This document shows, in pieces, positions 25,850 through 43,484 of a DNA stretch of 44,189 nucleotides (position 1 is its first letter; each line of letters begins with the position of its first letter). Both the position numbers and the translations under genes were made by a program. The notes under the pieces are model-generated. The model saw only the letters and a list, made by a program, of their open reading frames with translations, was not told the origin of the DNA and did not search any database. Origin of the DNA: Lachnospiraceae bacterium (GTDB taxonomy: Bacteria > Bacillota > Clostridia > Lachnospirales > Lachnospiraceae); NCBI GenBank assembly GCA_022800815.1, contig JAAWRC010000029.1, positions 1 through 44,189 on the forward strand, given 5' to 3'.

Positions 25850-26908
25850 TTATTCAAAAACAACCGCCACCTTCCCACACTGCCCCTCCGCCATGAGCCT
25901 GTACGCCTCGTCCGCCTTTTCCAGCGGGAATTCATGGGTGATCAAGACGTCCGGGTGGATGTTCCAGCGGACCAGGCGTTCCGTCAGCTCCTCCATCTTC
26001 CAGAGGGAGGTCACCCAGGAACCGTAGATCGTCTTCTGTCCGTGAATGATGTCGGGACTCGGCTGGAATGTACAGCTTCCGCCCTCTCCCACGAAGGCAA
26101 TCCTGCCCCATTCCCTGGTCGCCTGGATCGCCAGCCTTCGTCCTCCGTCGCTGGCCGAAGCGTCAATGGCCCGCTCAACTCCCTTTCCGCCCGTCAGCTC
26201 CAAAATCTGCGAAAGCGCCTCCTCTCCCGGTTTAACCACGTAATCTGCCAGGCCCAGCTTCTTCGCAAGTCCGATCCGGTATTCATTCATCTCCACGCCG
26301 ATCAGCCGATTTGCCCCCATGGCCCTTGCCAGCATCAGGGCCGCAAGCCCCACCGGACCAAGCCCCGTCACCAGAACCGCGTCATTTCCGCAAACTCCTA
26401 TTTTTTCAATCGCCTCGTACACGGTGCCGAAACCGCAGGCGATCTGTGCCCCGTCCTTGTAGGTAAGCTCGTCCGGAAGCGCAATCAAATCCTTCTCCTC
26501 CGCCAGAATGTATGGCGCCATGCCTCCGTTCCTCTGCCAGCCATAAGCCTGCCGGAACGGACTCTTGCAGGAGATGTAATATCCCCTCCGGCAATCGTTG
26601 CAGACGCCGCAGCCGGAAATATGATACACGATGACCCGGTCACCCTTTTTGAACCTCCGCAGTCCCTCCCCTTCCTCCACGATGACTCCGCAGGGTTCAT
26701 GGCCCGCCACCGTGCCGGGAATATATCCCTCCGGCCCCCTGCCGGTATGCTCCCTGTAAATGCACCGGATATCGCTTCCACAGATCGTCGTCGCCTTGGT
26801 CTGGATCAGCACCTGCCCGTGCCCCGGCACCGGTACTTCAAAATCCTTAAGCTCCACCGTGCTGTTTCCCGGCAGAACCGCACCTTTCATCATCCTTGCC
26901 GTTCCCAT
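25850..26908 (-). CDS. Zinc-dependent alcohol/polyol dehydrogenase (MDR family)
   Basis: An NAD(P)-dependent oxidoreductase of the medium-chain family, 352 aa. Catalytic zinc ligands are Cys43 (ICGSD) and His70-Glu71 (AGHEP). The structural zinc site is complete: C100, C103, C106 and C114. The cofactor-binding motif GLGPVGLAAL follows at about 185. This pattern is that of sorbitol, threonine or butanediol dehydrogenases; the substrate is open. I chose the start at 26908, with GGGG 7 bases upstream; the longer reading from 26947 has a poorer site. Its own promoter lies upstream, behind the epimerase gene. The setting beside a sugar transporter and an epimerase suggests a polyol or ketose substrate. 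Confidence 0.85.
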   Translation of the reverse strand: MGTARMMKGAVLPGNSTVELKDFEVPVPGHGQVLIQTKATTICGSDIRCIYREHTGRGPEGYIPGTVAGHEPCGVIVEEGEGLRRFKKGDRVIVYHISGCGVCNDCRRGYYISCKSPFRQAYGWQRNGGMAPYILAEEKDLIALPDELTYKDGAQIACGFGTVYEAIEKIGVCGNDAVLVTGLGPVGLAALMLARAMGANRLIGVEMNEYRIGLAKKLGLADYVVKPGEEALSQILELTGGKGVERAIDASASDGGRRLAIQATREWGRIAFVGEGGSCTFQPSPDIIHGQKTIYGSWVTSLWKMEELTERLVRWNIHPDVLITHEFPLEKADEAYRLMAEGQCGKVAVVFE

Positions 26909-26962
26909 ATGTATCCCCTTTTCTTTCATAAGAATCTCACGCTCCAACTGCTCCTCAGTTTG

Positions 26963-26991
26963 AGTGTAACATGCCCCCTGTTTTTTTTCAA
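26963..26991 (-). promoter_or_regulatory. Possible promoter of the zinc alcohol dehydrogenase gene
   Basis: On the minus strand TTGAAA (26986-26991), 17-bp spacer, TACACT (26963-26968). It lies in the gap after the epimerase gene. Confidence 0.5.
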
Positions 26992-27026
26992 TATGAAATA
27001 CTTCCTATTATTTATATGGGGCCGCC

Positions 27027-27920
27027 CTACGCCAGTTTGCCGCGCAGGAAATCCGCACCGTCCTTTGCATATCCGATCATAGTCTCGACATCTGCGCCAT
27101 GGCTCATGTCGCGCCAGCAGCAGATCTCCGTATTTCCCATCGTCATGAAGGGTTCCATGACGATGTAACCTGCATAACCGCTCTCCTTCACGGCTCCCAT
27201 GATCGCATCCCAATTCATGTTGGTCCTGCCCTCAAACCCGGGAACGCGGCGGTTGGATTCTCCCACGTGAAGATGTCCCATGCGTCCCTTGGACTGGGCG
27301 TATTTGATTGCGTCCGCAATATTGTCCTCCTCGATATTCATATGGAAAGTGTCCAGCAAAAGCTTCGCATTGGGGGAACCGAGGTCCTCGCAGAACTTGA
27401 CGCCCTCCTCGGCCGTATTCATGATAAACTGCTCAAAACGGTTGACGATCTCAAAGCAGTAATCAACGCCGCAATCCTCGGCCGTCTTGATGATCTCGCG
27501 CATGCTCTCAAGGCTTAAGTCACGAACGTGCCTCTTATATTCAGGCGTGCACACCGGCACCCCCGGGCGGCGAAGCCACTGGGAATAGTTGATGCCGCTC
27601 CAGCGGTCGCTTCCCACCTCGTACATCGCCTGAAGAACTCTCTTCGCCTTTTCAATGCCGATGCGCCTCACGGCGGGGTCGTCCGCCGCAATGTCGTCCT
27701 TCACGGTCCATCCGTCATTGATGGAGAGACACATCCCTGCATCCGCCACGGCCTTTTTATACTCGCGGCGTTCTTCCGTCGTCATGTCAAGGATCGCCTG
27801 CATGCCGATCTCGTTGACCTCGCAACCCGCCTTCTTTGCCATCTCCAGCCATTTATACGCCCCTGCGTCAACGGCCTCGGTGCCAATCCAATACGCATAG
27901 TGAAGTCCGATCTTGTTCAT
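27027..27920 (-). CDS. D-tagatose/D-allulose 3-epimerase-family sugar isomerase
   Basis: A TIM-barrel enzyme that moves the hydroxyl at C3 of a ketose, 297 aa. The metal-site residues known for D-tagatose/D-psicose 3-epimerases are all present: E157 (FEIVNR), D190 and H193 (LDTFHMN), H218 (HLHVGE) and E256 (MEPFM), with R224 in SNRR. The N-terminal half differs strongly from the second epimerase in the window (for example NYSQWLRRPG, and no YSYWP), so the sugar is probably different. The start at 27920 has GAGGAGG 6-7 bases upstream. The gene lies behind the ABC transporter genes and a hairpin, on the same strand, so it is likely a distal part of that operon. Exact substrate and direction are inferred only. 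Confidence 0.85.
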   Translation of the reverse strand: MNKIGLHYAYWIGTEAVDAGAYKWLEMAKKAGCEVNEIGMQAILDMTTEERREYKKAVADAGMCLSINDGWTVKDDIAADDPAVRRIGIEKAKRVLQAMYEVGSDRWSGINYSQWLRRPGVPVCTPEYKRHVRDLSLESMREIIKTAEDCGVDYCFEIVNRFEQFIMNTAEEGVKFCEDLGSPNAKLLLDTFHMNIEEDNIADAIKYAQSKGRMGHLHVGESNRRVPGFEGRTNMNWDAIMGAVKESGYAGYIVMEPFMTMGNTEICCWRDMSHGADVETMIGYAKDGADFLRGKLA

Positions 27921-28020
27921 TGTGATACCTCCTCGTTCTGTCATTGTCTTGTTACAATCCGATGAAATGCGTCATCACCAGTACGTGCCGGCGCATTCCC
28001 CGGGATACTCCGTAATGTAA

Positions 28021-28047
28021 CTCTTGCCCGCATAAAGCGGGCAAGAG
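28021..28047. terminator. Perfect 11-bp hairpin after the first sugar-binding protein gene
   Basis: CTCTTGCCCGC-ATAAA-GCGGGCAAGAG. On the minus strand it is not followed by a T run, so it probably protects the upstream mRNA end or partly terminates, giving more binding protein than epimerase. Confidence 0.7.
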
Positions 28048-28126
28048 CATTGCAAATATGATTACATAGAATTCATAGATGTCATGATTGTCTGAATTTC
28101 AGATCATTTTGGTATTTCGCTTAAAA

Positions 28127-29302
28127 TCACTGATCAAATGCAGCGTACTCATCCACGTTGCTGGAATCAATCCACTGAACGGGGACGTAAATCGTCTGCT
28201 CCTGGTCATAAGTGCCGGCAAGAATCTCAAGACCGGCCACGACGCCGTCATAACCAAGGGCATTCGGGAACTGAGCCGCAGTGCCATACATCTGGCCACC
28301 CTGGATCAGCTGCTTCGCCACGGCGTTGCCGTCGATTCCGGTTACGACGATGCCTTCGCTCTGAGACTCCTGAAGAGCTGCGATGGCGCCCTGTGCGGGA
28401 GTGTCGGAGAACGTCCAGATACCGTTGATCTCAGATCCGTATACCTGATACAGCTCGTTCATCTTCTGCTGGGCCTTGTCAACGTTAACGTTGGGGATGT
28501 CGCCCTCGCCCTCGGCGATGAGTTTCACATCAGGCCAGTTCTCAAGCTCGGCCATGGCGCCCTGCTCGCGGATTGCTGCGTTGGGGTTGGTGGAATCCGT
28601 CAGGATAAGGACGTTTCCTTTGCCGCCAAGCCGTTCGCAAAGCTTCTCCATCTGCATGCGTCCGGCTTCCTCGTTGGCCGAAACGATGACGGCGTCACAC
28701 TTCTCGCTGCCGTCGCAAGGAGCGTCAACGATCAGCGTCTTGACGTCAGATTCAACAAGCAGATTGAATGCGGGTACGGAGCTCTTCGGATCCATGGCTA
28801 CGAAAACAACGATGTCAAATCCGTTGTCGATGGTGTACTGGGCATTCTCAAGCTCTTTGGCGAGATCGCTGTTGTCATCGAGAACCTGGGCTTCGATATT
28901 GTAATCAACCATTGCCTGGGCCTCTTCCACCGCAGTCAGGAAACCGCTCTCGATGGAAGCATAGAAAAGCTCGCTTCTCTGTTTTACGATGAGGGCGATC
29001 TTAACGTCATGGCCAACGCCAAGGAGATCTGCTTTCATCTCCATCTTTGCCTGATCGACAAAAGCGGTGCCGGCTTCGGCGGCCTTCGTCTCTGCAGCTT
29101 CCGTTCCGGCAGCTTCCGTCGTGTCTGCGGGAGCAGCCGTGGTGTCTTCCGCGGGAGCTTCGGTCTCCGCCTTGGGAGCTTCCGTCTCTGCCGCAGGGGC
29201 GGCCGTGGTGCTGCCACCGTCATCGGAGCCGCCGCATGCGGCAAGGCTGGATACAACCAGTACCATTGCGAGAATCAATGCGAATAATCTTGATTTCTTC
29301 AT
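28127..29302 (-). CDS. Sugar ABC transporter substrate-binding lipoprotein (system 1)
   Basis: Captures sugar outside the cell for import by the neighbouring ABC system. The 391-aa protein has a signal peptide with lipobox LAAC (lipid-modified Cys23), then a low-complexity linker of Ala, Thr, Glu and Pro (about 24-76), and a periplasmic-binding-protein fold of the ribose/galactose type (Peripla_BP_4). Family features include IVVFVAMDP, the DAP..GS block and the GIDGNAVAKQ segment near the C-terminus. GGAGG lies 6 bases before the start. It is third in the operon ATPase-permease-binding protein and followed by a strong hairpin and the epimerase gene. The ligand is likely a pentose or hexose/ketose; allulose or allose is a guess from context. 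Confidence 0.9.
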   Translation of the reverse strand: MKKSRLFALILAMVLVVSSLAACGGSDDGGSTTAAPAAETEAPKAETEAPAEDTTAAPADTTEAAGTEAAETKAAEAGTAFVDQAKMEMKADLLGVGHDVKIALIVKQRSELFYASIESGFLTAVEEAQAMVDYNIEAQVLDDNSDLAKELENAQYTIDNGFDIVVFVAMDPKSSVPAFNLLVESDVKTLIVDAPCDGSEKCDAVIVSANEEAGRMQMEKLCERLGGKGNVLILTDSTNPNAAIREQGAMAELENWPDVKLIAEGEGDIPNVNVDKAQQKMNELYQVYGSEINGIWTFSDTPAQGAIAALQESQSEGIVVTGIDGNAVAKQLIQGGQMYGTAAQFPNALGYDGVVAGLEILAGTYDQEQTIYVPVQWIDSSNVDEYAAFDQ

Positions 29303-29400
29303 TTTTTTCCTCCATTTTTAAGAGTCTTTCTTATAAGTCTTTCTATGTAATCATTGTGAAACAGCATTTTTAGTGAAACAGTATTTTTATGAAAACTTTT

Positions 29401-30387
29401 TTAAGCCACCGCCTTCTTTTTCTTTCCGATCTTGATCTTGCCCTTGATCGAATCGTAGTAGACGGCCAGCAGGATCAAAATACCCTTCACGACCATCTGC
29501 CAGTAGCTATCAATCTTCAGATGGGTCATGCCGGAGTTCAGCACGCCGATGATACAGGCGCCGAGGAAGGAACCGAAGATGGTTCCGAAACCACCACTGA
29601 AGGCAGTACCGCCGATAACGGCTGCCGCAATTGCGTCCGTGCTGTACTCCTCGCCAATCTTAGGCTGTCCGGAACTCAGGCGGGAAGCCATGATCACGCC
29701 GGAAAGACCGGCCAGCAGACCCATGATGGTATAAGCGGCAACGGAAACCTTCGCATAGGAGATGCCGGAGTGCTTCGCCGCCTCCATATTGCCGCCGACC
29801 GCATACATATGGCGGCCAAGGCGGGTCCGCCCCAGAATCAGGCCCACGATAATCAGGGATATGACCATGATGATGAAAATCACCGGAATGCCGAGCACGC
29901 TGCTCATCCCGATCGCATTAAAAGTCTCATTGGTGGAAACAATGGGGGAACCGCCGGTGAAAATATATCCCGCACCGCGGATCGCCTGCTGGGTGGCAAG
30001 GGTGATGATGAAAGGCGGCAGCATCGTCGCCGCACGGATCACGCCGTTGAGCGCCCCGACCAGACCGCCGGCCAAAATGGCGATCAGAACGGAAAGCCAC
30101 ACGTTCCAGCCAAGGCCCGTATTCAAAACGACTGCGATCACGCTGGTCGCCGCAACCGTCGAACCGATGGACAGGTCGATACAGCCGATGATGATGACAC
30201 AGGTAATGCCGGCTGCCAAAAGCGCATTCACGCAGATGTTTCTCAGCACGGAAATCAGGTTATTGGTCGTCATGAATCCCTTTGTCGTGATCCAGAGAAT
30301 GACCATCAGCAAAACCAGAATGGTCAAAGGGCCTGCATATTGCTTGATGCTTTTCACAAAGCCTGATGAACTTTTCTTATTTTCCAT
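29401..30387 (-). CDS. Sugar ABC transporter permease (system 1, RbsC/AlsC type)
   Basis: Membrane channel of the ABC importer, 328 aa, with 8-10 hydrophobic segments typical of the BPD_transp_2 family. Conserved parts include NLISVLRNICVNALLAAG, the GCIDLSIGS block after the third segment, GGSPIVS, the GRTRLGRHMYAVGGN loop that contacts the ATPase, and IAAAVIGGTAFSGG near the end. A basic tail (KIGKKKKAVA) lies inside. It starts 3 bases after the stop of the ATPase gene, with AGGAGGGG inside the latter's end, so the two are coupled. It is probably a homodimer. Confidence 0.92.
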   Translation of the reverse strand: MENKKSSSGFVKSIKQYAGPLTILVLLMVILWITTKGFMTTNNLISVLRNICVNALLAAGITCVIIIGCIDLSIGSTVAATSVIAVVLNTGLGWNVWLSVLIAILAGGLVGALNGVIRAATMLPPFIITLATQQAIRGAGYIFTGGSPIVSTNETFNAIGMSSVLGIPVIFIIMVISLIIVGLILGRTRLGRHMYAVGGNMEAAKHSGISYAKVSVAAYTIMGLLAGLSGVIMASRLSSGQPKIGEEYSTDAIAAAVIGGTAFSGGFGTIFGSFLGACIIGVLNSGMTHLKIDSYWQMVVKGILILLAVYYDSIKGKIKIGKKKKAVA

Positions 30388-30389
30388 TT

Positions 30390-31883
30390 TTATTCCCCTC
30401 CTGTGGCATAGCGCATAATTTTGACCTGAGTGAATTCTTCCTCCGCACCGTCGAGAACAGTCGCAATCTCTCCTTCGTGCATGACCACGACGCGGCTCGA
30501 CATGTTGATGATCTCCGGAAGGTCACTGGAAATGAAAAGGATCGAGACGCCCTCGCTGGCAAGCCGTCTCATCAGCTGATAGATCTCGTGCTTGGCGCCC
30601 ACGTCGATGCCGCGGGTCGGCTCGTCCAGAATCAGAATCTTCGGTTCGGAGGCCAGCCACTTGGAGATAACGACCTTCTGCTGATTACCGCCGGAAAGGT
30701 TTCCGCAGGCCTGGTCCGGCCCGGAGGTCTTGATGGAAAGCTTATGCCGGTATTCTTCGATGATTTCATTTTCGATCTTCTTATTGACGCTGATCCCCTT
30801 GATGAACTTCTTAAGCACCGTGATGGTCAGATTCGTCCCCACGCTATGCCCCAGCACCAGGCCGCATCCGCGCCTGTCCTCCGGGACCATGCCGATTCCC
30901 GCGTCGATGGCGTCCTGCACGGTCTTAAAGGAAACCTGTTCGCCAAAGAGGGTCATGGTTCCCGAGTCCAGCTTGTCCAGGGCGAAAATCGCCCTCATGA
31001 GCTCCGTGCGCCCTGCGCCTACCAGTCCGGAGAAACCAAGAATCTCGCCCCTTCGGAGCTGGAAGGAACAATTCTTAAGCTTTTTGTTGGTGAAGTTCTT
31101 CACATCCAGGATCACTTCTCCGCCTTCCGCCCGCTCGCCCTCATAGACCTCGGCGATGGCGCGTCCGACCATCATCTCGATGATCTGGTCCTCCGTGGTC
31201 TCCGCCACGTTCAGCGTATCAATGTAGGTGCCGTCACGCATGATCGTGATCCGATCGCCGATCTCAAAGGTCTCGTTCATGCGGTGAGAGATATAAATGA
31301 TCCCCGTCCCCGCCGCTTTCAAATTCGCAACGATCTTGAACAGCTCCCGGATCTCCACCTCCGTCAGGGAGGAGGTCGGCTCGTCCATGATCACGATCTT
31401 GGCATTGTGGGAAACCGCCCCTGCGATCTCGACCATCTGCTGCTGCGCAATCGACAGATCTCCCACCTTCGTGTGGGCATCCAGATTCAGGTGCATGTCG
31501 TCCAGAATCTGCTGCGCCTGCTTGTACAGCTGCTTGAAATTCACGAATCCGTATGTACCCATCTCCTCGCCGCGGAAAATATTCTCTGCAATGGTCATAT
31601 TTTCACACATGGACAGCTCCTGGTGGATCATGGATACGCCCAGCGCCCTCGCATGAAGGGGGGAATCAACCACCACCTGCTCGCCGTCGATCTCGACGGT
31701 TCCCTCGTCCGCCTTGTACAGACCGTCAAGAATCTTCATCAGCGTCGACTTCCCGGCTCCATTCTCTCCCATCAGGATGTGAACTTCTCCTTTGCGCAAG
31801 TCGAAGTGAACACCCTTCAGGGCATGTACGCCGCCAAACCTCTTTTCGATGTTTGACATTACTAATACATTTTCATCTGCCAC
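30390..31883 (-). CDS. Sugar ABC transporter ATPase, two ABC domains (system 1)
   Basis: Energises the importer. The 497-aa protein has two fused ABC domains, as in RbsA/AlsA. Domain 1 has a full Walker A, GENGAGKST (39-47), but a degenerate signature (LSIAQQQ). Domain 2 has a degenerate Walker A (GLVGAGRTE) but a full signature LSGGNQQKV, the usual hybrid arrangement in this family. The start is GTG at 31883, with GGAGG 7 bases upstream. It is first in the operon with the permease and binding protein. The promoter (TTGACA-N17-TAATAT) lies about 150 bases upstream, back to back with that of the allulose epimerase gene, so the two units probably share regulation. Confidence 0.93.
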   Translation of the reverse strand: MADENVLVMSNIEKRFGGVHALKGVHFDLRKGEVHILMGENGAGKSTLMKILDGLYKADEGTVEIDGEQVVVDSPLHARALGVSMIHQELSMCENMTIAENIFRGEEMGTYGFVNFKQLYKQAQQILDDMHLNLDAHTKVGDLSIAQQQMVEIAGAVSHNAKIVIMDEPTSSLTEVEIRELFKIVANLKAAGTGIIYISHRMNETFEIGDRITIMRDGTYIDTLNVAETTEDQIIEMMVGRAIAEVYEGERAEGGEVILDVKNFTNKKLKNCSFQLRRGEILGFSGLVGAGRTELMRAIFALDKLDSGTMTLFGEQVSFKTVQDAIDAGIGMVPEDRRGCGLVLGHSVGTNLTITVLKKFIKGISVNKKIENEIIEEYRHKLSIKTSGPDQACGNLSGGNQQKVVISKWLASEPKILILDEPTRGIDVGAKHEIYQLMRRLASEGVSILFISSDLPEIINMSSRVVVMHEGEIATVLDGAEEEFTQVKIMRYATGGE

Positions 31884-32267: not shown

Positions 32268-33143
32268 ATGTTATACGGTATCTACAATGCGTACTGGACC
32301 CACGAGTGGTCCGCAAACTATGAATATTACATTCCGAAGGTGAAAAAGCTGGGCTTTGACGTGCTGGAGATTTCCTGCGCCGCACTGACAAGGGATTATG
32401 CCACCGACGAAAAGATCCGCGATCTGAAGAAATGCGCAGATGACAACGGAATCGTCCTGACGGCGGGATATGGCCCCACAAAAGAACAAAATCTGTGTTC
32501 GTCCGACGAGGCGGTCGTGAAAAAAGCCATGGCTTTTTTTGAAATGATCCTGCCCAAGCTCCAGATGATGGATATCAAGGTACTGGGCGGCGGCCTGTAT
32601 TCTTACTGGCCCCTGGACCCGTCCATGCCGATGGACAAGGAAAAGGATACGGAGCGCGCCATTCAGAACATGCGAAAGCTCTCCAAGGTGGCCGAAGCCT
32701 GTGACGTGACCCTGGGCATGGAAGTATTGAACCGTTATGAGGGCTATATGATGAACACCTGCGAAGAAGCCCTGCGGTTTATCGACGCAGTGGACAGTTC
32801 CCATGTAAAAGTCATGTTGGATACGTTCCACATGAACATCGAGGAGGATAACATGGCCGCCGCCATCCGTCTGGCAGGCGACAAGCTGGGACATCTGCAC
32901 CTGGGCGAGCAGAATCGCCGCGTCCCCGGCAAGGGCAGCATGCCGTGGCAGGAGATCGGACAGGCCCTTCGGGATATCAATTATCAGGGAGCCGCAGTTA
33001 TGGAACCCTTCGTCATGCGGGGCGGAACCGTCGGTTCTGAGATCAAGGTCTGGAGGGACCTGGTGCCGGACGTGACAGAAGAGATCCTGGACCTGGATGC
33101 GAAGGGCGCAGTGGAGTTCGTCCGTCACGTATTCGGGATATAG
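32268..33143 (+). CDS. D-psicose (D-allulose) 3-epimerase
   Basis: Interconverts D-fructose and D-allulose (or related ketoses) by epimerising C3; a Mn/Co-dependent TIM barrel of 291 aa. The metal ligands E152, D185, H211 and E246 fall at the same numbers I remember for the Agrobacterium enzyme, as do H188, R217 and E158 around the substrate. The N-terminus (GIYNAYW), the GGGLYSYWP loop and the C-terminal GGTVGSEIKVWRD closely resemble the clostridial psicose 3-epimerases. The ATG at 32268 has AAGGAG about 8 bases upstream; the open frame extends further but has no ribosome binding site. The VOC gene follows after 11 bases. Preference among allulose, tagatose and fructose must be measured. 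Confidence 0.9.
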   Translation: MLYGIYNAYWTHEWSANYEYYIPKVKKLGFDVLEISCAALTRDYATDEKIRDLKKCADDNGIVLTAGYGPTKEQNLCSSDEAVVKKAMAFFEMILPKLQMMDIKVLGGGLYSYWPLDPSMPMDKEKDTERAIQNMRKLSKVAEACDVTLGMEVLNRYEGYMMNTCEEALRFIDAVDSSHVKVMLDTFHMNIEEDNMAAAIRLAGDKLGHLHLGEQNRRVPGKGSMPWQEIGQALRDINYQGAAVMEPFVMRGGTVGSEIKVWRDLVPDVTEEILDLDAKGAVEFVRHVFGI

Positions 33144-33154: not shown

Positions 33155-33544
33155 ATGGGAATTGAAGTGAAGGGTGTCTCCCATATTGGGCTGTACATCA
33201 AGGATGTTGAACGTTCCAAAAAATTTTATACCGAGGTTCTCGGCTTTGAAACCATCTGCGAATTTGTCTCCCTGGAAGGAAACAGGATGGCTTTCGTAAA
33301 AAGCGGAAATCTGATCATCGAACTGATCCAGCACAAAGTACGGATGGACCGGAGGGACGGCCTGTTCGACCACATCGCCATGGAAGTGGAGGACATCGAG
33401 CAGACCAGCAAACAGCTTAAAGCCCTTGGCACCACATTCGAGTCAGATATCTATTTTGACGATCTGGTCTTTGAGCGGGGTGTAAAATACCAGGCATTCC
33501 GCGGGCCGGACGGAGAACATCTGGAAATTTATCAGACGCTTTGA
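33155..33544 (+). CDS. VOC-family (glyoxalase-like) protein
   Basis: A 129-aa protein of the vicinal-oxygen-chelate superfamily, made of two babbb units. The first metal-ligand candidate is His10 (VSHIGLYI), with Glu in NLIIELIQ (about residue 55), His in FDHIAMEV (about 71) and Glu in EHLEIYQ near the end: the glyoxalase I pattern of four ligands. AGGAGG lies 6-7 bases before the start and the gene follows the allulose epimerase by 11 bases, so it is in the same operon. The family includes lyases, dioxygenases and isomerases or epimerases; its job here is not clear. It could detoxify a dicarbonyl formed from the ketose, which is only inference. Confidence 0.85.
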   Translation: MGIEVKGVSHIGLYIKDVERSKKFYTEVLGFETICEFVSLEGNRMAFVKSGNLIIELIQHKVRMDRRDGLFDHIAMEVEDIEQTSKQLKALGTTFESDIYFDDLVFERGVKYQAFRGPDGEHLEIYQTL

Positions 33545-33677: not shown

Positions 33678-33706
33678 TTGACAGAAAACGGTTTCGATGC
33701 TACCAT
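33678..33706 (+). promoter_or_regulatory. Promoter of the Ldh-family gene with an operator-like spacer
   Basis: TTGACA (33678-33683), 17-bp spacer, TACCAT (33701-33706). The spacer begins with GAAAACGGTTTC (33684-33695), an imperfect palindrome resembling both a catabolite-response element and the GAAAAC-A-GTTTTC site by the second transporter promoter. Confidence 0.65.
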
Positions 33707-33735
33707 GAATATAATCAAATAATTTGCAAGAAGAA

Positions 33736-33786
33736 ATGCAATATAAAATATCAGTGACGTTCTTTTATATTATATTGCATTTTTTG
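33736..33786 (+). promoter_or_regulatory. Attenuator-like hairpin in the Ldh-family gene leader
   Basis: ATGCAATATAA pairs with TTATATTGCAT, with more A-T pairs inside, and a run of T follows directly. It lies after the promoter and 70 bases before the start codon. Its form is that of a weak terminator inside a leader. The rest of 33545-33858 is empty. Confidence 0.55.
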
Positions 33787-35116: not shown

Positions 35117-36241
35117 ATGGCAGTGACTCCGGAAATCCGGAAATTAAACAAACGTAACACGTATCTATATATTTATCGGCATAAGGAATGCTCCAAGCAG
35201 GAGCTGGCATCCAGCGTGGGACAGAGCCTGCCGACGGTCAATCAGAATCTGAATGAACTGCAGGAGGAGGGCTTTGTCCGCATTGCGGGACACTATAAGT
35301 CCACCGGTGGCCGCAAGCCCATGGTCTTACAGTGTACGCCGGAGGCACGGGTCGCCGTGGGCGTGCAGATCCTTGCCGGCCAGGTTACCGCCGTACTGCT
35401 CGATCTGTACGGGAAGGTTCTTTCCTGCAAAATCCTCAAAGAATCTTACTCCAACGACGAAGCCTATTTTCAGAAGACCGGCCGTTTCATTGCCGATTTT
35501 GTGGACCTGGCCGGATACCCGGAGGAACGGCTTCTGGGGATCGCCGTCGCCACTCAGGGCGTCGCCGATTACGACCACAAAAGGCTGGTCTACGGCCGGA
35601 TCCTAAACAATTACGGTCTCTCCTCCGACCAGCTCTCCGCCTACATCGGAAGACCCTGTATCCTGATGCACGACAGTGAGACCGCCGCCTTTGCCGAGAG
35701 CTTCCACCGGCCAAATCTGCGGGACTCCAGCTACATCTTCCTGAACGATTATTTGGGCAGCGCCTCCATCATCAACGGCAGCCTGTACCGGGGCAACCAC
35801 GGCCGGGGCCAGCTTCTCGAACACGTGAGCCTGGTGCGGGGCGGACGCAAATGCTACTGCGGCCAGTACGGATGCGCCGAGAGCTATTGCGGTGCCTACG
35901 GCCTGCGCAAGATGTCCGGACTGCCGACAGAGGAATTCTTCCGCCGTCTCCGCAGCCAGGATGCGCAGGTTCAGAACATGTGGGATGAATACCTGGACTA
36001 TCTGGCGCTCCTTCTGCACAACGTCCTGATGACCATGGATGTGGACATCATCCTGGGCGGCCTCCTCCGCAAATACATGGTCCCGGAGGATCTCAAGGTC
36101 ATCGAAGAAAAGATCCGCCGCCAGACGGACTTCGACATCCCGGAGCAGACCATCACCCTGGAATACGTCACCGACTATCCAGCGGCCCGCGGGGCCGCCC
36201 TCTATCTGGTCCAGGATTTTCTCGACCATTTCGAGACCTGA
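35117..36241 (+). CDS. ROK-family transcriptional regulator (NagC/XylR type)
   Basis: A sugar-responsive repressor of 374 aa. The N-terminal winged helix (about 5-75) has KQELASSVGQSLPTVNQNLN as its helix-turn-helix. The rest is the ROK sugar-kinase fold (about 80-370). The zinc-binding ROK signature is CYCGQYGC with C246, C248 and C253, and His236 comes just before as the fourth ligand. The phosphate-binding Asp-Gly-Gly seen in active ROK kinases is not evident at residues 95-100 (LDLYGK), so it is probably a regulator, not a kinase. AGGTGG lies about 8 bases before the start. It stands alone, between the Ldh-family gene and transporter operon 2, both of which carry a GAAAAC-type palindrome at the promoter. 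Confidence 0.9.
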   Translation: MAVTPEIRKLNKRNTYLYIYRHKECSKQELASSVGQSLPTVNQNLNELQEEGFVRIAGHYKSTGGRKPMVLQCTPEARVAVGVQILAGQVTAVLLDLYGKVLSCKILKESYSNDEAYFQKTGRFIADFVDLAGYPEERLLGIAVATQGVADYDHKRLVYGRILNNYGLSSDQLSAYIGRPCILMHDSETAAFAESFHRPNLRDSSYIFLNDYLGSASIINGSLYRGNHGRGQLLEHVSLVRGGRKCYCGQYGCAESYCGAYGLRKMSGLPTEEFFRRLRSQDAQVQNMWDEYLDYLALLLHNVLMTMDVDIILGGLLRKYMVPEDLKVIEEKIRRQTDFDIPEQTITLEYVTDYPAARGAALYLVQDFLDHFET

Positions 36242-36427: not shown

Positions 36428-36440
36428 AAAGCCACAAACA

Positions 36441-36578: not shown

Positions 36579-37703
36579 ATGAAAAAAAGGAATCTGTTGA
36601 AAAAGGCTGTTGCGACGCTTATGGCAACCGGACTGCTTTTGTCCATGGCCGCCTGCGGAAACGGGGACTCCGGGTCCACGGAGGCCGCTTCCGGCACCAC
36701 CGGGGCCGCCGAGACAAAGGCCGAAGATGCCGACACCACTGCCGCTGCCGCTGCGGAGGGCGAGACCAAGGCTGACGGAGAAAAATACCGCATCGGCCTC
36801 TCCATGGGCACCAGCAACACCGAATTCTGCATGAAGGTGATGGCCGAGGTCCAGAACGCCTGCGACGCCAACCCCGACGTGGAGCTGACCACCCTCTCCG
36901 CAGACAGCGATGCCAACACCCAGGTCACCAACATCGACAACCTGGTGACCTCCGGCGTGGATGCCATCTTAGTCTACCCGGTGGATCCCGAAATCTGCGC
37001 CGACGCCATGAAGCGGGCCAGGGACGCCGGCATCCACGTGGTCATCGTCGACCAGATGCCTTCCGACACGGACAGCTTCGACGTGGGCATCAGCGTTTCC
37101 ATGCATGACCTGGGCGCAGGCGTAAACGAGATGGCCTCCGACTGGATCGACGCCACCTTCCCCGACGCCGAGGACGGCAGCGTCAAGGTGGGCGTCCTGG
37201 GCCTCTGGTCCACGGAACAGTTTGCGGAGCGCTGCGACGTGTTCAACGAGATCGCCGACTACAATCCCAAGGCCGTCGTCTGCGAGAGCTACGACCACAA
37301 TGCCTCCAACTTTGCCACCGAGACCGCACAGAACGTGGAGATCCTGCTGCAGAAGCATCCCGACATCAACGCCATCCTCTGCTTCACCGACACCCAGGCC
37401 ACCATCGCCGAGGAAGCCATTCAGAAGAACAAGGATGCCATGAACCTGAACACCGATGAGATCGGCATCTTCACCGTCGACCACTCCACCGCCTCCTTCG
37501 AGCTGCTCGGCCGTTCCGCCGACGGGGAAAGCTGCCTGCGGGGCATCGTGACCACAAACCTGGCCGTGGGACAGCTGATGTACGACTGTGCGATGAAAGA
37601 CTACGACGCAAATGAACTGGCGGACGGTAAAATCCTGTACCAGGATATCTACAAGATCGACACCACCAACATGGCCGATTACGAACAGTACATCCTGAAC
37701 TAA
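36579..37703 (+). CDS. Sugar ABC transporter substrate-binding lipoprotein (system 2)
   Basis: A second sugar-capturing lipoprotein, 374 aa. The signal peptide ends with SMAAC (lipid-modified Cys26), followed by a short Thr/Ala/Glu/Gly-rich linker (to about 67) and a ribose-type binding fold (Peripla_BP_4): RIGLSMGTSN, VTNIDNLVTSGVDAI, VIVDQMPSD, and the INAILCFTDTQATIAEEA block. AAGGAG lies about 6-7 bases before the start. It is first in the operon binding protein-ATPase-permease, the reverse of system 1, and is followed by a 12-bp hairpin and a mini repeat. Its sequence differs clearly from that of system 1, so the ligand may differ. Confidence 0.9.
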   Translation: MKKRNLLKKAVATLMATGLLLSMAACGNGDSGSTEAASGTTGAAETKAEDADTTAAAAAEGETKADGEKYRIGLSMGTSNTEFCMKVMAEVQNACDANPDVELTTLSADSDANTQVTNIDNLVTSGVDAILVYPVDPEICADAMKRARDAGIHVVIVDQMPSDTDSFDVGISVSMHDLGAGVNEMASDWIDATFPDAEDGSVKVGVLGLWSTEQFAERCDVFNEIADYNPKAVVCESYDHNASNFATETAQNVEILLQKHPDINAILCFTDTQATIAEEAIQKNKDAMNLNTDEIGIFTVDHSTASFELLGRSADGESCLRGIVTTNLAVGQLMYDCAMKDYDANELADGKILYQDIYKIDTTNMADYEQYILN

Positions 37704-37761
37704 ACCTGCCATGACCACACAGACCATCCGAAACGACTAAAACATTTGACAGACCCGAAAA

Positions 37762-37797
37762 GTTTCCCCTGCGAGCAAAGAAAGGCGCAGGGGAAAC
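37762..37797. terminator. 12-bp hairpin after the second sugar-binding protein gene
   Basis: GTTTCCCCTGCG pairs perfectly with CGCAGGGGAAAC around a 12-base loop. There is no T run. Its position mirrors the hairpin after the binding protein of system 1. Confidence 0.7.
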
Positions 37798-37818
37798 GCT
37801 TATCGAGACCAAGCCAAT

Positions 37819-37881
37819 AGGCAATTGCGAAACTGCAAAGCATGGGAGGGATTCTGACAATTCCACGTTTCGCAATTGCCT
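37819..37881. repeat. 63-bp mini copy of the palindrome-ended repeat
   Basis: Perfect 15-bp inverted ends, AGGCAATTGCGAAAC and GTTTCGCAATTGCCT, around a core containing GATTCTGACAATT. It keeps only the two ends of the 214-bp element. Confidence 0.8.
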
Positions 37882-37918
37882 GATAATACCCTTATAATAA
37901 TGAAAGGACGGTGATATT

Positions 37919-39394
37919 TTGTCCATATTAAAAGTAGAAAACCTGACCAAAAGATATCCCGGCGTCGTGGCCCTCGACCAGGTGAGCTTTGAGATCGAGC
38001 CCGGCGAAATCCGGGGCCTGATCGGCGAGAACGGTGCGGGCAAGTCCACCATCATCAAATCCATCGCCGGCGCCATCTCCTTCGACGAAGGCAAGCTGAT
38101 CATAGACGGCAGGGAATACACCTCCATCGCCCCGACGGAGGCGATCAAGCAGGGGATTTCCGTGATCTATCAGGAGTTCAACCTGATCCCCTCCATGACA
38201 GTGGCCGAAAATATCTTCCTGGGGGAGCGGATCGGCAGTAAATTCAAAGTGGATTTTAAAGAGATGAACCGGAAGGCCCGGGAGATCTTTGACCGCTTCG
38301 GCGTGGAGATCGACACGACCGCCCCGGTGGGCAGCCTCTCCACCGCACAGATGCAGTTGGTGGAGATCGCCAAGGCGATCTCCAAGGACGTGAAGGTCCT
38401 GTTCATGGACGAGCCCAGCGCCTCCCTCTCCGTCTCCGAGACCAAGGTCATGTTCGAGATCGTCTGTGCCCTGAAACAGGACGGCCTCGCCATCGTCTAC
38501 GTCTCCCACCGACTGGAGGAGCTCTTCGAGATCTGCGATTCCGTGACGGTCATGCGGGACGGACACACCATCGAGACCAGAAAGATCGAGGACCTCGACC
38601 GGCATACCCTGATCAAGCTGATGGTCGGCCGTGAGTTGAACGAGACCTACCCGGAGCGCATCCCGGTCTCCGACGAGGTGGTCCTGGAGTTAAAGAACGT
38701 CTACGGAAACGGCGACGTGGGCATTGACCTGAAATTACATAGAGGAGAAATCCTGGGCCTGGGCGGCCTTGTGGGCTGCGGGCGGACGGAGCTGGCCAAG
38801 ATGATCTACGGAGCCGTGCCCATCGAACGGGGCGAAATGCTCTTATTCGGAGAACCCGTCCGCTTAAGCTCTCCGGCGGACGCCATCGAAAAGGGGATCG
38901 GCCTGATCCCGGAGGACCGAAAGACCGAGGGCGTGTTCATCGACTTCCCCATCGACTGGAACGTGGTCGTCCAGTGCCTGAGGAAGATCTCGAAAAACAG
39001 CGTCGTGGACACCGGGAAAATGGACGAGATCAGCAAGCGCTACATTGGCGAAATGAAGATCGCCACCCCCAGCCCTCACCAGCTGGTCAAGAACCTCTCC
39101 GGGGGCAACCAGCAGAAGGTGGTCGTGGCCAAGGTGCTGGCGACCCAGACCAAAGTCATCATCTTTGACGAGCCGACCCGAGGGATCGACGTGGGGGCCA
39201 AGCAAGAGATCTACCGTCTCATGAACGATCTGACCAAGCAGGGGATCTCCATCCTGATGATCTCCTCCGACATGGAAGAGCTTTTAGGCATGAGCGACCG
39301 CATCGTCGTGCTGAACGAGGGCGCCATCGCCGGAGAGATTGAAAAAGCGGAGTTCTCCCAGATCGCAGTCATGGAACTGGCATCGTCCAATTAA
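37919..39394 (+). CDS. Sugar ABC transporter ATPase, two ABC domains (system 2)
   Basis: A 491-aa fused ATPase of the RbsA type. Domain 1 has a full Walker A GENGAGKST and a degenerate signature (LSTAQMQ), and its Walker B VLFMDEPSASL. Domain 2 has GLVGCGRTE in place of Walker A and a full signature LSGGNQQKV, followed by Walker B VIIFDEPTRGID. The start is TTG at 37919 with AAAGGA about 10 bases upstream; no ATG lies nearby. A leader of more than 200 bases with a hairpin and a repeat separates it from the binding-protein gene. The permease gene follows after 14 bases. Confidence 0.93.
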   Translation: MSILKVENLTKRYPGVVALDQVSFEIEPGEIRGLIGENGAGKSTIIKSIAGAISFDEGKLIIDGREYTSIAPTEAIKQGISVIYQEFNLIPSMTVAENIFLGERIGSKFKVDFKEMNRKAREIFDRFGVEIDTTAPVGSLSTAQMQLVEIAKAISKDVKVLFMDEPSASLSVSETKVMFEIVCALKQDGLAIVYVSHRLEELFEICDSVTVMRDGHTIETRKIEDLDRHTLIKLMVGRELNETYPERIPVSDEVVLELKNVYGNGDVGIDLKLHRGEILGLGGLVGCGRTELAKMIYGAVPIERGEMLLFGEPVRLSSPADAIEKGIGLIPEDRKTEGVFIDFPIDWNVVVQCLRKISKNSVVDTGKMDEISKRYIGEMKIATPSPHQLVKNLSGGNQQKVVVAKVLATQTKVIIFDEPTRGIDVGAKQEIYRLMNDLTKQGISILMISSDMEELLGMSDRIVVLNEGAIAGEIEKAEFSQIAVMELASSN

Positions 39395-39408
39395 GAAAGG
39401 AAAAGACA

Positions 39409-40416
39409 ATGGAAAATAAAAAGAAATTTGACATCGGCAAACTGATCAGCGATAATGTCGCCTGGTTCGTACTCCTGATCCTGGTCGTATTTTTCGGCAT
39501 TTTCTCCGAAAACTTTTTCAGCTTCCGCAACATCATGAACCTGTTATCCCAGAACGCTTACCTGTTAATTGCGGCGACCGGCATCACCTTCGTGATGATG
39601 AGCAGCGGCATGGATCTCTCCGTGGGATACGTCATGTCCACCATCGGCATCGTCGGCGCAAAGCTTCTGATGGATGCGGGACTTCCCACCCTGGTGGTCA
39701 TTCCCATTATGATTCTCCTGACCATCGCCATCGAGCTTTTAAACACCTTCCTCTCCATCAAGCTGAACCTGACGCTGCTGGTCGTCACCATCGCCACGAT
39801 GACCATCTTCCAGGGAGCGACTTATATCATCTCAGAGTCCAAGACCATCAACAACCTGCCCGACAGCTTCAAGTTCCTGGGACAAAAATACCTCTTTAAT
39901 TCCATCCCGATCGCTGTTATCATTATGGTAGTGCTCTTTTTGATCATGAGCTTTGTACTGAACAAAACCTATTTCGGCCGCTATGTCTATGCGCTGGGCG
40001 GCAATCCGGAGGCAGCCCGCCTGGCCGGCATCAATATCAACAAAATGCGCTACATGATCGCCGTCATCGAGGGCCTGTTCATCGGCATCGCAGTGGTGCT
40101 TCTGATCGGCCGCTTGGGTTCCGCCGTCTCCACCGTCGGCGTCGGCACCGAGTTCAGCGTCATGACCGGCATCTTCCTGGGCGGCGTCTCCATCCGGGGC
40201 GGCGAAGGAAAACTGTCCGGCGTATTTGCAGGTATCCTCTGCATTGCGCTGCTCACCAACGGCATGCAGCTGGCCGGAATCAACATCTATTATCAGTATG
40301 TGGTCCGTGGTTTGATCCTGCTGGCCGCCATTGGCTATGACGTCTATCAGCTCAACCGCCGGAACAACATGAAAAAGAAAAAGCTGGAAGAAGCAAGAGA
40401 GGCGAAACGATCATGA
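39409..40416 (+). CDS. Sugar ABC transporter permease (system 2)
   Basis: A 335-aa BPD_transp_2-family membrane protein with 8-10 hydrophobic segments. It has NIMNLLSQNAYLLIAATGITF, the SSGMDLSVG block, the FGRYVYALGGNPEAARLAGI coupling loop, and EFSVMTGIFLGGVSIRGGEG near the end. The C-terminus is basic and cytoplasmic. It starts 14 bases after the ATPase gene, behind AAGGA. Its last 4 bases overlap the start of the dehydrogenase gene (ATGA), so this polyol enzyme is translationally tied to the transporter. Confidence 0.92.
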   Translation: MENKKKFDIGKLISDNVAWFVLLILVVFFGIFSENFFSFRNIMNLLSQNAYLLIAATGITFVMMSSGMDLSVGYVMSTIGIVGAKLLMDAGLPTLVVIPIMILLTIAIELLNTFLSIKLNLTLLVVTIATMTIFQGATYIISESKTINNLPDSFKFLGQKYLFNSIPIAVIIMVVLFLIMSFVLNKTYFGRYVYALGGNPEAARLAGININKMRYMIAVIEGLFIGIAVVLLIGRLGSAVSTVGVGTEFSVMTGIFLGGVSIRGGEGKLSGVFAGILCIALLTNGMQLAGINIYYQYVVRGLILLAAIGYDVYQLNRRNNMKKKKLEEAREAKRS

Positions 40417-42023
40417 AACTATCTATCAAAGATTTAAAGAACAAAAAAGTCTGGGAGGAGGCCGGAATCGGGCTGCCCTCCTACGATGTAACCGCCCTGC
40501 AGGAGAGGACCAAAACCTCTCCCCGCTGGGTCCACTTCGGGATCGGCAATATTTTCCGCATCTTTCTCGGTGGAATCGCAGACCGGCTGATCTCCCAGGG
40601 ACTCCTGGACACGGGGATCGTCTGTGCCGAGACCTTCGACTACGACATTGCGGACAAAATCTATGCCCCCTGCGACAACCTCTGCCTGGCCGTCACCCTG
40701 TACGAGGACGGCTCCATGAAAAAACAGGTCCTCGGTTCCCTGGCCGAGTGCGTCAAGGCCGACAGCGCCGACGAAGCGAGCTGGGCCCGCATGAAAGAGA
40801 TCTTCCGGGATCCCGGTCTCCAGATGGTCTCCTTCACCATCACGGAGAAGGGCTACGGACTGCGGGGAACCGACGGCAATTATCTCGGCTATGTCCGAAA
40901 GGATATGGAAAACGGCCCTTCCGCCCCCACCGGGGCCATGGCCGTGGTGGCGGCCATGCTGCTCGCACGTTTTCAGGCGGGAGCGGCTCCTCTCGCCCTG
41001 GTCTCCATGGACAACTGTTCCCACAACGGGGCGCTCCTTCGTACCTCCGTGCTCACCGTCGCCGAAGAATGGCAGAAAAAAGGCTTCGTGACCGGGGACT
41101 TCCTCTCCTATATTCAGGATGAGGAAAAAGTCTCCTTCCCCTGGACCATGATCGACAAGATCACCCCCCGCCCCGCCGACTTTGTGGCCGAGGGGCTTGC
41201 GAAGGACGGCGTGGAGGGTATGGACATCCTCGTGACCTCCAAAAACACCTACATCGCTCCCTTTGTCAATTCCGAGGCGCCCGGATACCTGGTGATCGAG
41301 GATCGTTTCCCCAACGGGCGGCCTCCCCTGGAGAAGGCCGGTGTGTACATGACAGACCGGGAGACCGTGAACAAGTCCGAGCGGATGAAGGTCACCGCCT
41401 GCTTAAACCCCATCCACACGGCCCTGGCCCCCTACGGAATGCTCCTCGGCTATGAATACTTCGCCGACCTGATGGACGATGAGGAGCTCAAGGTGCTGGC
41501 TCACAACGTCGGGTACGTGGAGGGACTGCCCCGCGTCGTCGACCCCGGAATCTTCTCCGCCAGGGAATTTCTGGACGAGGTGATCGAGAAGCGGATGCCC
41601 AACAAATACCTGGGAGACAGCACGGCCCGCATCTGCACCGACTCCTCCCAGGGCGTCGGCGTCCGCTTCGGCGAGACCATCCGCTCCTATGCGGCGGAAT
41701 TTGGCACCGCCGACATGCTGGAGGCGATCCCCCTGGCACTGGCCGGATGGCTGCGCTACTTCTACGCCGTCGACGACGAAGGTAACGCCTTTACCCTGGC
41801 CCCCGACCCGCTGGCCGAGGAACTCCACCGCATCGTGACGGAGGTGCCCCTGGGCAGTCCCGACAAGCTGACAGACCAGGTCCACCGCATCCTCTCAAAC
41901 ACAGAGATCTTCGGCAGCGACCTCTACGAGGCCGGCGTGGGCCAGAAGGTCGAAGTCCTCTTCCTCGAAGAGATCGCCGGGCCCGGAGCCGTCCGCGCCA
42001 CCCTGAAAAGACATCTGGCGTAA
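40413..42023 (+). CDS. Mannitol dehydrogenase-family (fructuronate reductase-type) oxidoreductase
   Basis: An NAD-dependent polyol or aldonate dehydrogenase of the long-chain family (MtlD/UxuB), 536 aa. The N-terminal Rossmann domain has the WVHFGIGNIFR motif (about 39-49). The C-terminal helical domain has the catalytic-lysine region with SERMKVTACLNPIHTALA (about 325-342), a variant of the family's K..LNG.H signature. Family members oxidise mannitol, arabinitol, altronate or mannonate, or run backward. It overlaps the permease gene by 4 bases, so it belongs to transporter operon 2. Together with an allulose epimerase in the region, a polyol such as mannitol, allitol or altritol is a reasonable guess. 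Confidence 0.85.
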   Translation: MKLSIKDLKNKKVWEEAGIGLPSYDVTALQERTKTSPRWVHFGIGNIFRIFLGGIADRLISQGLLDTGIVCAETFDYDIADKIYAPCDNLCLAVTLYEDGSMKKQVLGSLAECVKADSADEASWARMKEIFRDPGLQMVSFTITEKGYGLRGTDGNYLGYVRKDMENGPSAPTGAMAVVAAMLLARFQAGAAPLALVSMDNCSHNGALLRTSVLTVAEEWQKKGFVTGDFLSYIQDEEKVSFPWTMIDKITPRPADFVAEGLAKDGVEGMDILVTSKNTYIAPFVNSEAPGYLVIEDRFPNGRPPLEKAGVYMTDRETVNKSERMKVTACLNPIHTALAPYGMLLGYEYFADLMDDEELKVLAHNVGYVEGLPRVVDPGIFSAREFLDEVIEKRMPNKYLGDSTARICTDSSQGVGVRFGETIRSYAAEFGTADMLEAIPLALAGWLRYFYAVDDEGNAFTLAPDPLAEELHRIVTEVPLGSPDKLTDQVHRILSNTEIFGSDLYEAGVGQKVEVLFLEEIAGPGAVRATLKRHLA

Positions 42024-42035
42024 AAACAACTGACA

Positions 42036-42249
42036 CAGGTAATTGCGAAGCCGCAAAATTGCAGGAACATTCTGTCAATATGTCCGTCCAAAGCCTGCAG
42101 CGCCAACCGTTCCGGCAAGCCCAGAACCGCAGAAGACACTCGGGCATGAGCCCTCCTGCCTTCTCTGGTCTTGCCTCCACGGCGCAGAGGGCTTTTCCCG
42201 GAAATATTGCCAGAATGTTCGACAGATTTTTGAGACTCGTAATTACCTG
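42036..42249 (+). repeat. Full 214-bp palindrome-ended repeat, copy 1
   Basis: Starts CAGGTAATTGCGAAG and ends CGTAATTACCTG. Its reverse complement matches the next copy along most of its length, including CCCTCTGCGCC..TGG and GGCTTTGGA.GGA. It encodes no convincing protein. Confidence 0.85.
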
Positions 42250-42260
42250 AAACACCTATA

Positions 42261-42474
42261 CAGGCAATTGCGAAACCGCAAAACGTGGAAAGGATTCTGA
42301 CAATTGCATCCAGGAAAAGCCCTCTGCGCCATGGAAACGAGACCATGGAAAACGGGAGGGTCTGGCCCTCCCGTTTTCTGCGCTTATGGGCTCGTTGGAA
42401 TGTTTGGCGCAGCAGGCTTTGGATGGATCAATTGTCAGAATCCACTCGACAATTCCATGTTTCGCAATTACCTG
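42261..42474 (-). repeat. Full 214-bp palindrome-ended repeat, copy 2, inverted
   Basis: Starts CAGGCAATTGCGAAAC and ends GTTTCGCAATTACCTG. Exactly the same length as copy 1, in the opposite direction and 11 bases away. Together they fill 42024-42503, which has no gene. Confidence 0.85.
42349..42377. terminator. Terminator-like hairpin inside repeat copy 2
   Basis: AAAACGGGAGGG-TCTGG-CCCTCCCGTTTT, a perfect 12-bp stem ending in T. Copy 1 has no equally good version. It may end the transporter operon 2 transcript. Confidence 0.6.
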
Positions 42475-42503
42475 ACATCTATCTATAAAGAAAGGATCAC
42501 ACA

Positions 42504-43484
42504 ATGGCTGATTATTATCGGAAGTTATTTGAACCGGAGTACGGGGAAGCCGCCCCGGACGCGATCATCGACGTGGGAAGCGACGTCGGCGTGGGCCTCG
42601 ACCTGGAGCATCCCACGGAGAGCCGCATCTGGCAGAATTTTGAGACCATCACCCTCCTGACGGAAAAATGGAGAAAGGTCTTCTGTTTCCCCAAGATCAT
42701 GAGCATCCCCACGGAAAACATATTCATCCGTTCCGACGACTACGACCTCCCCGTCCGCATCTACAAGCCGGAAGGGGAAGGCCCCTTCAAGACCATGGTA
42801 TTTTTCCACGGCGGCGGCTGGACGATGAACAACGTGGATGTCTACGACTACGTCCACCGCTATTTCGCAAAATACGGAAACGTGCTGGTCATCGCCCCCG
42901 ATTACCGTCTCGCCCCGGAACACCGCTATCCCAAGGGCTTCAACGACTGCTACAACACCGTCGTCTGGGCCGCAGAACACTGCCAACAGTACGGCGGCGT
43001 CCCGGAAAACCTCTGTCTGTGCGGCGACTCCGCCGGCGGAAATCTGTCCGCCGCCGTCTGCCTGCGCTCCCGCAATGAAAACGGGCCAAAGATCGCAAAG
43101 CAGTTCCTCTTCTTCCCGGCAGCCGCCTTCAACCTCGGCTACCGCACCGAATCGGAAAAGCGCTACGGAAACGGGGAATACTTCCTCGCCATGAACAGCG
43201 AGTCTGGGATCCAGATTCCCTATCTGAACGACCCGGAGGAGGCGAAGCTCCCCTACGTGTCACCGCTCTTTGCAGACGACCTCACGGGACTTCCTCCCAC
43301 CTGCTTCCTTGCGGCAGAATGCGACCCCCTCCTGGACCAAGAGCTGATGTTCGCCGCCAAGCTCAAAGACCAGGGCAACGAGGTGGACTTCCGCCTCTAC
43401 AAAGGAATGGTGCACGCCTTCCTCAACCGCCCTCAGCAAAAAACCTTCGAGGCCATGGACGACGTCATCGCGGCCATGCCGTAA
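42504..43484 (+). CDS. HSL-family alpha/beta hydrolase (carboxylesterase)
   Basis: An esterase of the hormone-sensitive-lipase family, 326 aa. The oxyanion-hole motif is HGGGW (102-106), the nucleophile Ser176 is in GDSAGG, the acid is Asp274 in ECDPLLDQ and the base His304 in GMVHAF: a complete catalytic triad. No signal peptide is seen, so it is cytoplasmic. It may remove acetyl or other acyl groups from imported sugars, which is inference. AAAGGA lies about 8 bases before the start. It follows the dehydrogenase gene on the same strand, but 480 bases of repeats with a terminator-like hairpin intervene, so expression may be separate. Confidence 0.9.
   Translation: MADYYRKLFEPEYGEAAPDAIIDVGSDVGVGLDLEHPTESRIWQNFETITLLTEKWRKVFCFPKIMSIPTENIFIRSDDYDLPVRIYKPEGEGPFKTMVFFHGGGWTMNNVDVYDYVHRYFAKYGNVLVIAPDYRLAPEHRYPKGFNDCYNTVVWAAEHCQQYGGVPENLCLCGDSAGGNLSAAVCLRSRNENGPKIAKQFLFFPAAAFNLGYRTESEKRYGNGEYFLAMNSESGIQIPYLNDPEEAKLPYVSPLFADDLTGLPPTCFLAAECDPLLDQELMFAAKLKDQGNEVDFRLYKGMVHAFLNRPQQKTFEAMDDVIAAMP

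Follow-up and report, generated by a model that had tools for sequence, protein, structure and literature searches.

The stretch analysed here, referred to below as the window, is one whole contig of 44,189 nucleotides (JAAWRC010000029.1, assembly GCA_022800815.1) from a Lachnospiraceae bacterium whose genome, G000, is 97% complete. Beside the glycerol kinase gene glpK, the window carries 17.6 kb of genes (25850-43484) that a first-pass annotation had presented as a single candidate system for rare ketose and polyol use, with two importers, two epimerases, three dehydrogenases, a regulator and an esterase. In the following, module A refers to rok, importer A, mdh and est, and module B to importer B and epiB. 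The genes and features of the locus are as follows.

24232-25728, minus strand: glpK, glycerol kinase (NF000756, 836 bits, cut-off 498)
25761-25843: fragment of a dispersed inverted-repeat element, between zADH and glpK
25850-26929, minus strand: zADH, zinc-dependent medium-chain dehydrogenase (PF08240, PF00107; every NCBIfam match under its cut-off)
26935-26993, minus strand: stretch upstream of zADH similar to glpP promoters in relatives (judged by alignment scores in comparison with 500 shuffles)
27027-27920, minus strand: epiB, second ketose 3-epimerase-like protein, module B (PF01261; NF051856, 260.5 bits, under the cut-off of 300)
28127-29302, minus strand: sbpB, sugar-binding lipoprotein of importer B (PF13407)
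29401-30387, minus strand: permB, permease of importer B (PF02653)
30390-31883, minus strand: atpB, double ATPase of importer B (PF00005, two stretches)
32268-33143, plus strand: dpe, D-psicose (allulose) 3-epimerase type (NF051856, 463.5 bits, cut-off 300)
33155-33544, plus strand: voc, glyoxalase-fold protein paired with dpe (PF00903)
33678-33785, plus strand: promoter-like sites and leader of ldh2, with a terminator-like hairpin at 33736-33785 and without the GAGAG motif of relatives
33859-34980, plus strand: ldh2, malate/lactate dehydrogenase family (PF02615)
35117-36241, plus strand: rok, ROK-family regulator, module A (PF00480 and an N-terminal winged helix)
36579-37703, plus strand: sbpA, sugar-binding lipoprotein of importer A (PF13407)
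37818-37882: short copy of the dispersed inverted-repeat element, between sbpA and atpA
37919-39394, plus strand: atpA, double ATPase of importer A (PF00005)
39409-40416, plus strand: permA, permease of importer A (PF02653)
40413-42023, plus strand: mdh, mannitol dehydrogenase family, UxuB-like (PF01232, PF08125)
42036-42249 and 42261-42474: two full copies, of about 214 bp each, of the dispersed inverted-repeat element, between mdh and est
42504-43484, plus strand: est, hormone-sensitive-lipase-type esterase, module A (PF07859; LipP1, 254.9 bits, under the cut-off of 350)

All the genes named earlier exist, are open and full-length and match Pfam or NCBIfam families, and the opposite gene order of the two importers was borne out by reading the genes; the inventory itself was complete except for the glyoxalase-fold gene voc, which had been overlooked. 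Importer B (31883-28127), epiB, zADH and glpK run leftward, and the genes from dpe through est run rightward, followed by tRNA genes. The likely start codons of dpe (ATG 32268), ldh2 (ATG 33859) and zADH (ATG 26929) lie inside the longest open reading frame.

The site was compared across a genus set of 11 genomes (G000-G010) and read with wide flanks in seven of the ten others, namely G002, G004-G008 and G010. G007 corresponds to record L012 (uncultured Lachnotalea sp.) and G008 to record L011 (Lachnospiraceae bacterium), the fetched stretches being identical. For the relatives, gene calls come from a script and gene names from inspection by eye, except where Pfam, NCBIfam or tblastn is stated, and presence was scored at E 1e-60 for epiB and zADH and at E 1e-80 for dpe, with a 38% epiB match in G010 excluded. 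All 11 genus genomes contain glpK, and ldh2 neighbours glpP/glpK or module B in all seven that were read; glpK and ldh2 are the standing genes of the site, in the order tRNA-Cys, ldh2, glpP-glpK, rpoB. In the simple form, ldh2 faces away from glpP-glpK (G002, G005, G006 and also G004) or, in G010, from glpK with no glpP. G007 and G008 carry importer B and epiB (78-95% identical) between ldh2 and glpP, and module A is absent from their site. G004 holds rok, importer A, mdh and est (96-100% identical) on the far side of ldh2, with no match to epiB, zADH or dpe at the thresholds above. The tRNA-Cys gene directly follows the end of ldh2 in G005, G006, G007 and G008 and is separated from it by module A in G000 and G004, so module A has been added between these two genes. 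In G007 and G008, dpe-voc and zADH each occupy a further contig: dpe-voc is flanked by an MFS gene and an AAA-ATPase-like gene (the latter named by eye), and zADH is next to a lactonase gene and an AraC regulator gene. Among the genus genomes, epiB, dpe and mdh occur all together only in G000.

The modules also differ in age, as judged by Jukes-Cantor distances at four-fold degenerate sites. Between G000 and G004, the backbone genes rpoB, glpK and ldh2 lie at 0.33, 0.34 and 0.22, and the genes of module A at 0.13 (rok), 0.07 (sbpA), 0.00 (atpA and permA), 0.04 (mdh) and 0.14 (est); module A, at 0.00-0.14 against 0.33 for rpoB, has therefore been exchanged recently. The same pair is 98.7-100% identical over 38093-41692 in 300-base windows, against 76.7-95.9% from rpoB through glpK. 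Module B and dpe are of about backbone age, the distances from G000 to G007 and G008 being 0.70 and 0.87 for rpoB, 0.76 and 0.74 for dpe, 0.89 and 1.18 for epiB, and 0.66 and 0.65 for atpB; zADH is more distant (1.65 and 1.40). Dating the gains and losses with a genus tree of glpK proteins was abandoned, its resolution being too low.

Both epiB and dpe are present in the same three of the 11 genus genomes (G000, G007 and G008), and zADH in those and G001. The rpoB distances place G000 closer to G004 than to either G007 or G008, so the joint distribution of epiB and dpe requires two or more gains or losses; the glpK tree, although poorly resolved, likewise needs two changes. In a wider set of 175 genomes, with counts that ignore kinship, zADH is found in six of the nine dpe genomes against 13 of 175 overall. 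A link between dpe, epiB and zADH is supported because of these two patterns. No link between mdh and dpe is seen, mdh being present in two of the nine dpe genomes against 76 of 175 overall.

These comparisons do not support the claim that the whole 17.6 kb forms one system: at the same site, G004 has module A without the epimerases, and G007 and G008 have module B but not module A, the two halves are of unequal age, mdh does not follow dpe, and no operator-like palindrome common to both halves was seen in the window. We consider it probable that the locus is a composite, in which separate sugar-use cassettes of different age lie at a variable chromosome site beside glpK. The genome comparisons point towards two halves that would respond to unrelated signals.

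Both epimerases carry the full catalytic set that had been credited to one of them. The annotation of dpe as a D-psicose 3-epimerase type holds, as it passes the curated NF051856 model, and it does have every catalytic position; it is not unique in this, since epiB has them too. The columns E157, E163, D190, H193, H218, R224 and E256, which we take to be the catalytic and metal-binding columns of the family, are invariant in all 13 sequences of alignment A2, dpe and epiB included. The two proteins share 36% identity; the best solved relative of dpe is 7x7w, and those of epiB are the D-tagatose 3-epimerases 4pfh, 4q7i and 2ou4. Neither reaches the IolO cut-off of 300 (94.3 bits for epiB, 118 for dpe). 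Since epiB and zADH stay under the cut-off of every specific curated model that they match, neither substrate can be named. A homologue of voc directly adjoins dpe, as in the window, in six of 32 named dpe loci (L011-L015 and L042), and at 40% in L144. Of these 32 loci, some of them short, 21 include an ABC ATPase and 17 an FGGY kinase, with one partial or weak case of each. In another Lachnospiraceae genome, glpK (75% identical) stands directly behind dpe (L038:10010-12475).

The absence of a sugar kinase other than glpK holds locally, with no other FGGY kinase among the genes of 25850-43484, but not for the genome, in which there are 14 FGGY_N matches (glpK included) and 12 PfkB matches. The entry step into central metabolism, which had been left open, is thus no real gap.

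In module A, mdh is an orphan of a UxuB-like family. Among 87 matches to it, 16 in relatives other than G004, mostly the best-scoring, were read with wide flanks; the gene caller overlooked mdh in seven of 15 loci, and neighbours were hence counted by tblastn on all 16. By this count, uxuA adjoins mdh relatives in ten loci and uxaC in two, 11 loci in total, with Pfam confirming one uxuA and one uxaC. UxuA (PF03786) was not found at E 0.001 in G000, at 97% completeness, and is present in two of the 11 genus genomes, in G006 only as pieces. With 110.3 bits, mdh falls far below the fructuronate reductase cut-off of 603; as a uxuA-adjacent relative fails too (133.9 bits), that model is a poor test here. 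Across a family set of 397 genomes, sbpA has a close relative only in G004, and nine further genomes hold relatives at 29-35%. Outside G000 and G004, the loci of eight of its ten matches were read, and in three of them (L221, L225 and L226, the last by tblastn only) a subtype B tannase gene lies near the importer, accompanied in two of the three by a UbiD-type decarboxylase gene. The tannase cut-off of 300 bits is clearly exceeded in L221 (645) and L225 (635), and the L225 decarboxylase scores 448.5 against 650. These three loci possibly represent a cluster for gallate-ester use in Lachnospiraceae, built from a CUT2-type importer and a tannase. Because of the tannase genes near related importers and the esterase in module A itself, the cargo of module A may reasonably be guessed to be an acylated sugar, polyol or sugar acid. 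Attempts to name the ligands of sbpA and sbpB from solved relatives gave only distant, general sugar binders. An integrase-borne island was considered for module A and rejected, as no integrase is found among the module genes and no copy of the tRNA-Cys end was seen by eye on the ldh2 side; a plasmid-borne locus was also rejected, the plasmid search giving 20 records that each covered no more than 1% of the query. In G004, a short recombinase-like open reading frame was noted by eye on the far side of the tRNA genes that adjoin module A (L077:2286-2549).

On the glpK side, zADH occupies the position held in six relatives by glpP, the local glycerol regulator gene. Eight of the 11 genus genomes have glpP (PF04309) above its cut-off and G003 has a weak hit only; it was not found in G000 (97% complete) or G010 (80% complete). 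When the 100 bases before zADH were aligned with the six glpP upstream regions, 0, 1, 4, 7, 8 and 28 of 500 shuffles scored as high, against 66 to 440 of 500 for the upstream regions of five other zADH genes; the shuffles preserve single-base content only, and G007 and G008 are closely related to each other. As the region matches glpP promoters better than those of other zADH genes, zADH has probably been substituted for glpP downstream of the glpP promoter. In G004-G008 (L077, L078, L079, L148 and L149), which are five of the six glpP-bearing genomes read, the leader of ldh2 contains a GAGAG[C/T] motif followed by a terminator, and in G002 a degenerate form of motif and terminator was seen by eye; in G000 and G010, which have no glpP, it is without the motif, G000 retaining a hairpin. 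A scan for motif plus terminator across 17 same-genus loci returned those five leaders and three further places. The pattern suggests that GlpP once controlled ldh2 and that this control was lost along with glpP, and ldh2 in the glpP-bearing relatives is possibly a new GlpP target. The glpP leaders of G001, G006 and G009 are without the motif, which speaks against a simple GlpP rule. The lactonase gene of the window (11275-12282) was considered as a lost partner of zADH and set aside; being only 24.6% identical to the zADH-adjacent lactonase of G007, it is hardly an orthologue. Behind this lactonase gene and an SDR gene, near tRNA-Val/Met, translation by eye reveals a broken Ldh_2-like gene with its pieces in different frames (12367-13276).

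A composite locus could work as follows, in a scheme whose substrates, reaction directions and regulation we infer from the gene content. Cassette B would import a sugar or sugar-like acid, and epiB would epimerise the keto form at C3, as dpe presumably would. The dpe-voc pair and zADH, located elsewhere in the sister species, lie here beside cassette B; zADH would interconvert an alcohol and its keto form, and the product of the epimerase route would enter central metabolism through kinases encoded elsewhere. Cassette A would be a separate unit under its own ROK regulator, importing an acylated sugar, polyol or sugar acid from which est would remove the ester, with mdh performing a redox step.

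Several observations weigh against so strict a separation. Outside the genus, relatives of zADH and dpe share one contig in G067 and G087 (about 5 kb apart) and in G095 (about 24 kb), and the G067 contig also bears relatives of rok, an importer, FGGY and mdh. At least one genome therefore has a wider joint system, and selection for joint use, with module A included, may explain why dpe-voc, zADH and epiB have gathered in the window. In its full form, a joint rare-ketose and polyol system would take in a polyol or ketose through either importer, zADH or mdh would make the ketose, the epimerases would convert it in the direction of fructose or a different usable ketose, and phosphorylation would fall to a kinase encoded elsewhere. 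The presence of all these genes together in the window and the G067 contig speak for it; with module A free of epimerases in G004, the unequal ages and the rarity of mdh in dpe genomes, we regard it as quite unlikely. A sugar-acid route, which we judge unlikely, would instead have zADH oxidise an aldonate or cyclitol derivative, epiB convert a keto acid, for example 5-keto-L-gluconate, and mdh reduce the product, as in Thermotoga and Luteolibacter LG18. In the Thermotoga IolM/IolO route, a dehydrogenase, a D-tagatose-3-epimerase-like enzyme and a keto-acid reductase act in series, and here zADH matches IolM (154.3 bits), epiB matches IolO and mdh the fructuronate and tagaturonate reductases; zADH also lies beside a lactonase gene in G007 and G008. 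These matches all remain under the curated cut-offs (IolM 450, IolO 300, fructuronate and tagaturonate reductase 603 and 359), the best models and best solved relatives of epiB are ketose 3-epimerases, epiB occurs without mdh in G007 and G008, and G000 yielded no UxuA. The route gains some plausibility from LG18, in which a gene annotated as D-tagatose 3-epimerase encodes a 5-keto-L-gluconate 4-epimerase that is followed by a tagaturonate reductase (PMC12632266).

A different kind of explanation is rewiring of the glycerol site, in which the ketose-linked zADH would have replaced the antiterminator gene glpP, zADH-glpK would form a new operon free of glycerol antitermination, ldh2 would have lost its GlpP motif, dpe-voc and epiB would have gathered there and the glycerol kinase would perhaps serve the new route; taken as a whole, this is a tentative and rather doubtful reading. 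A misassembly that joined zADH or dpe-voc to the site as a repeat artefact is very improbable. Such an error might be suspected, as a fragment of a repeat sits precisely at the junction of zADH and glpK and the element family, of about 214 bp with ends CAGGYAATTGCGAAAC, is abundant, with 84 genomic matches, a number in which many places appear twice, once for each strand. On its other side, however, zADH joins the glpP-promoter-like stretch with no intervening repeat, so both of its sides point to the glp site; no repeat ends were found between 25776 and 37818, which includes the joins of dpe-voc, and voc is followed by the promoter and leader of ldh2 itself. The composite locus remains the favoured explanation. 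What looks like one pathway when only one genome is considered can consist of cassettes of different age at one site. The testable units that emerge here are dpe, epiB and zADH as a set, the importer family found close to a tannase gene in three relatives, and the GlpP control that a gene replacement may have abolished. Allulose is a dietary sweetener, and which gut bacteria use it, and how, is of practical interest.

Among the open-licence titles listed for allulose, ketose epimerases, polyol routes and psicose epimerase genes, none concerned this gene set, which is no proof of absence. The parts of the locus resemble several known systems to different degrees. Like the clostridial D-psicose 3-epimerases (7x7w, 3vni and 7e9w), dpe passes the curated model and has the same catalytic columns; unlike clostridial allulose-type loci, which combine an ABC importer, an FGGY kinase and dpe, the window has no dedicated kinase beside dpe but a VOC gene, and glpK is 6.5 kb away. 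With the D-tagatose 3-epimerases, its best solved relatives, epiB shares the catalytic residues, whereas its score stays under the D-psicose 3-epimerase cut-off and the region of its QWLRRP stretch reads SYWPLD in dpe. The mdh family adjoins uxuA or uxaC in 11 of 16 loci, as expected of the UxuA/UxuB hexuronate route, from which the window departs in the lack of a detected UxuA in G000 and in the low score of mdh. In Bacillus subtilis, GlpP acts on a terminator located just behind the promoter (PMC9604022). The ldh2 leaders of glpP-bearing relatives (clear in five of the six read) similarly have a promoter and then motif and terminator, like the GlpP-controlled glycerol genes of B. subtilis, but the target here would be an Ldh_2 dehydrogenase, and the window is without glpP, with zADH in its place. 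Finally, unlike the LG18 and Thermotoga IolM/IolO routes, the locus has no genes that reach the cut-offs of the corresponding curated models and contains no dehydratase, KDG kinase or aldolase, yet it shares with the L-glucose/L-galactose pathway of LG18 (PMC12632266) the combination of a dehydrogenase, a D-tagatose-3-epimerase-like enzyme and a keto-acid reductase.

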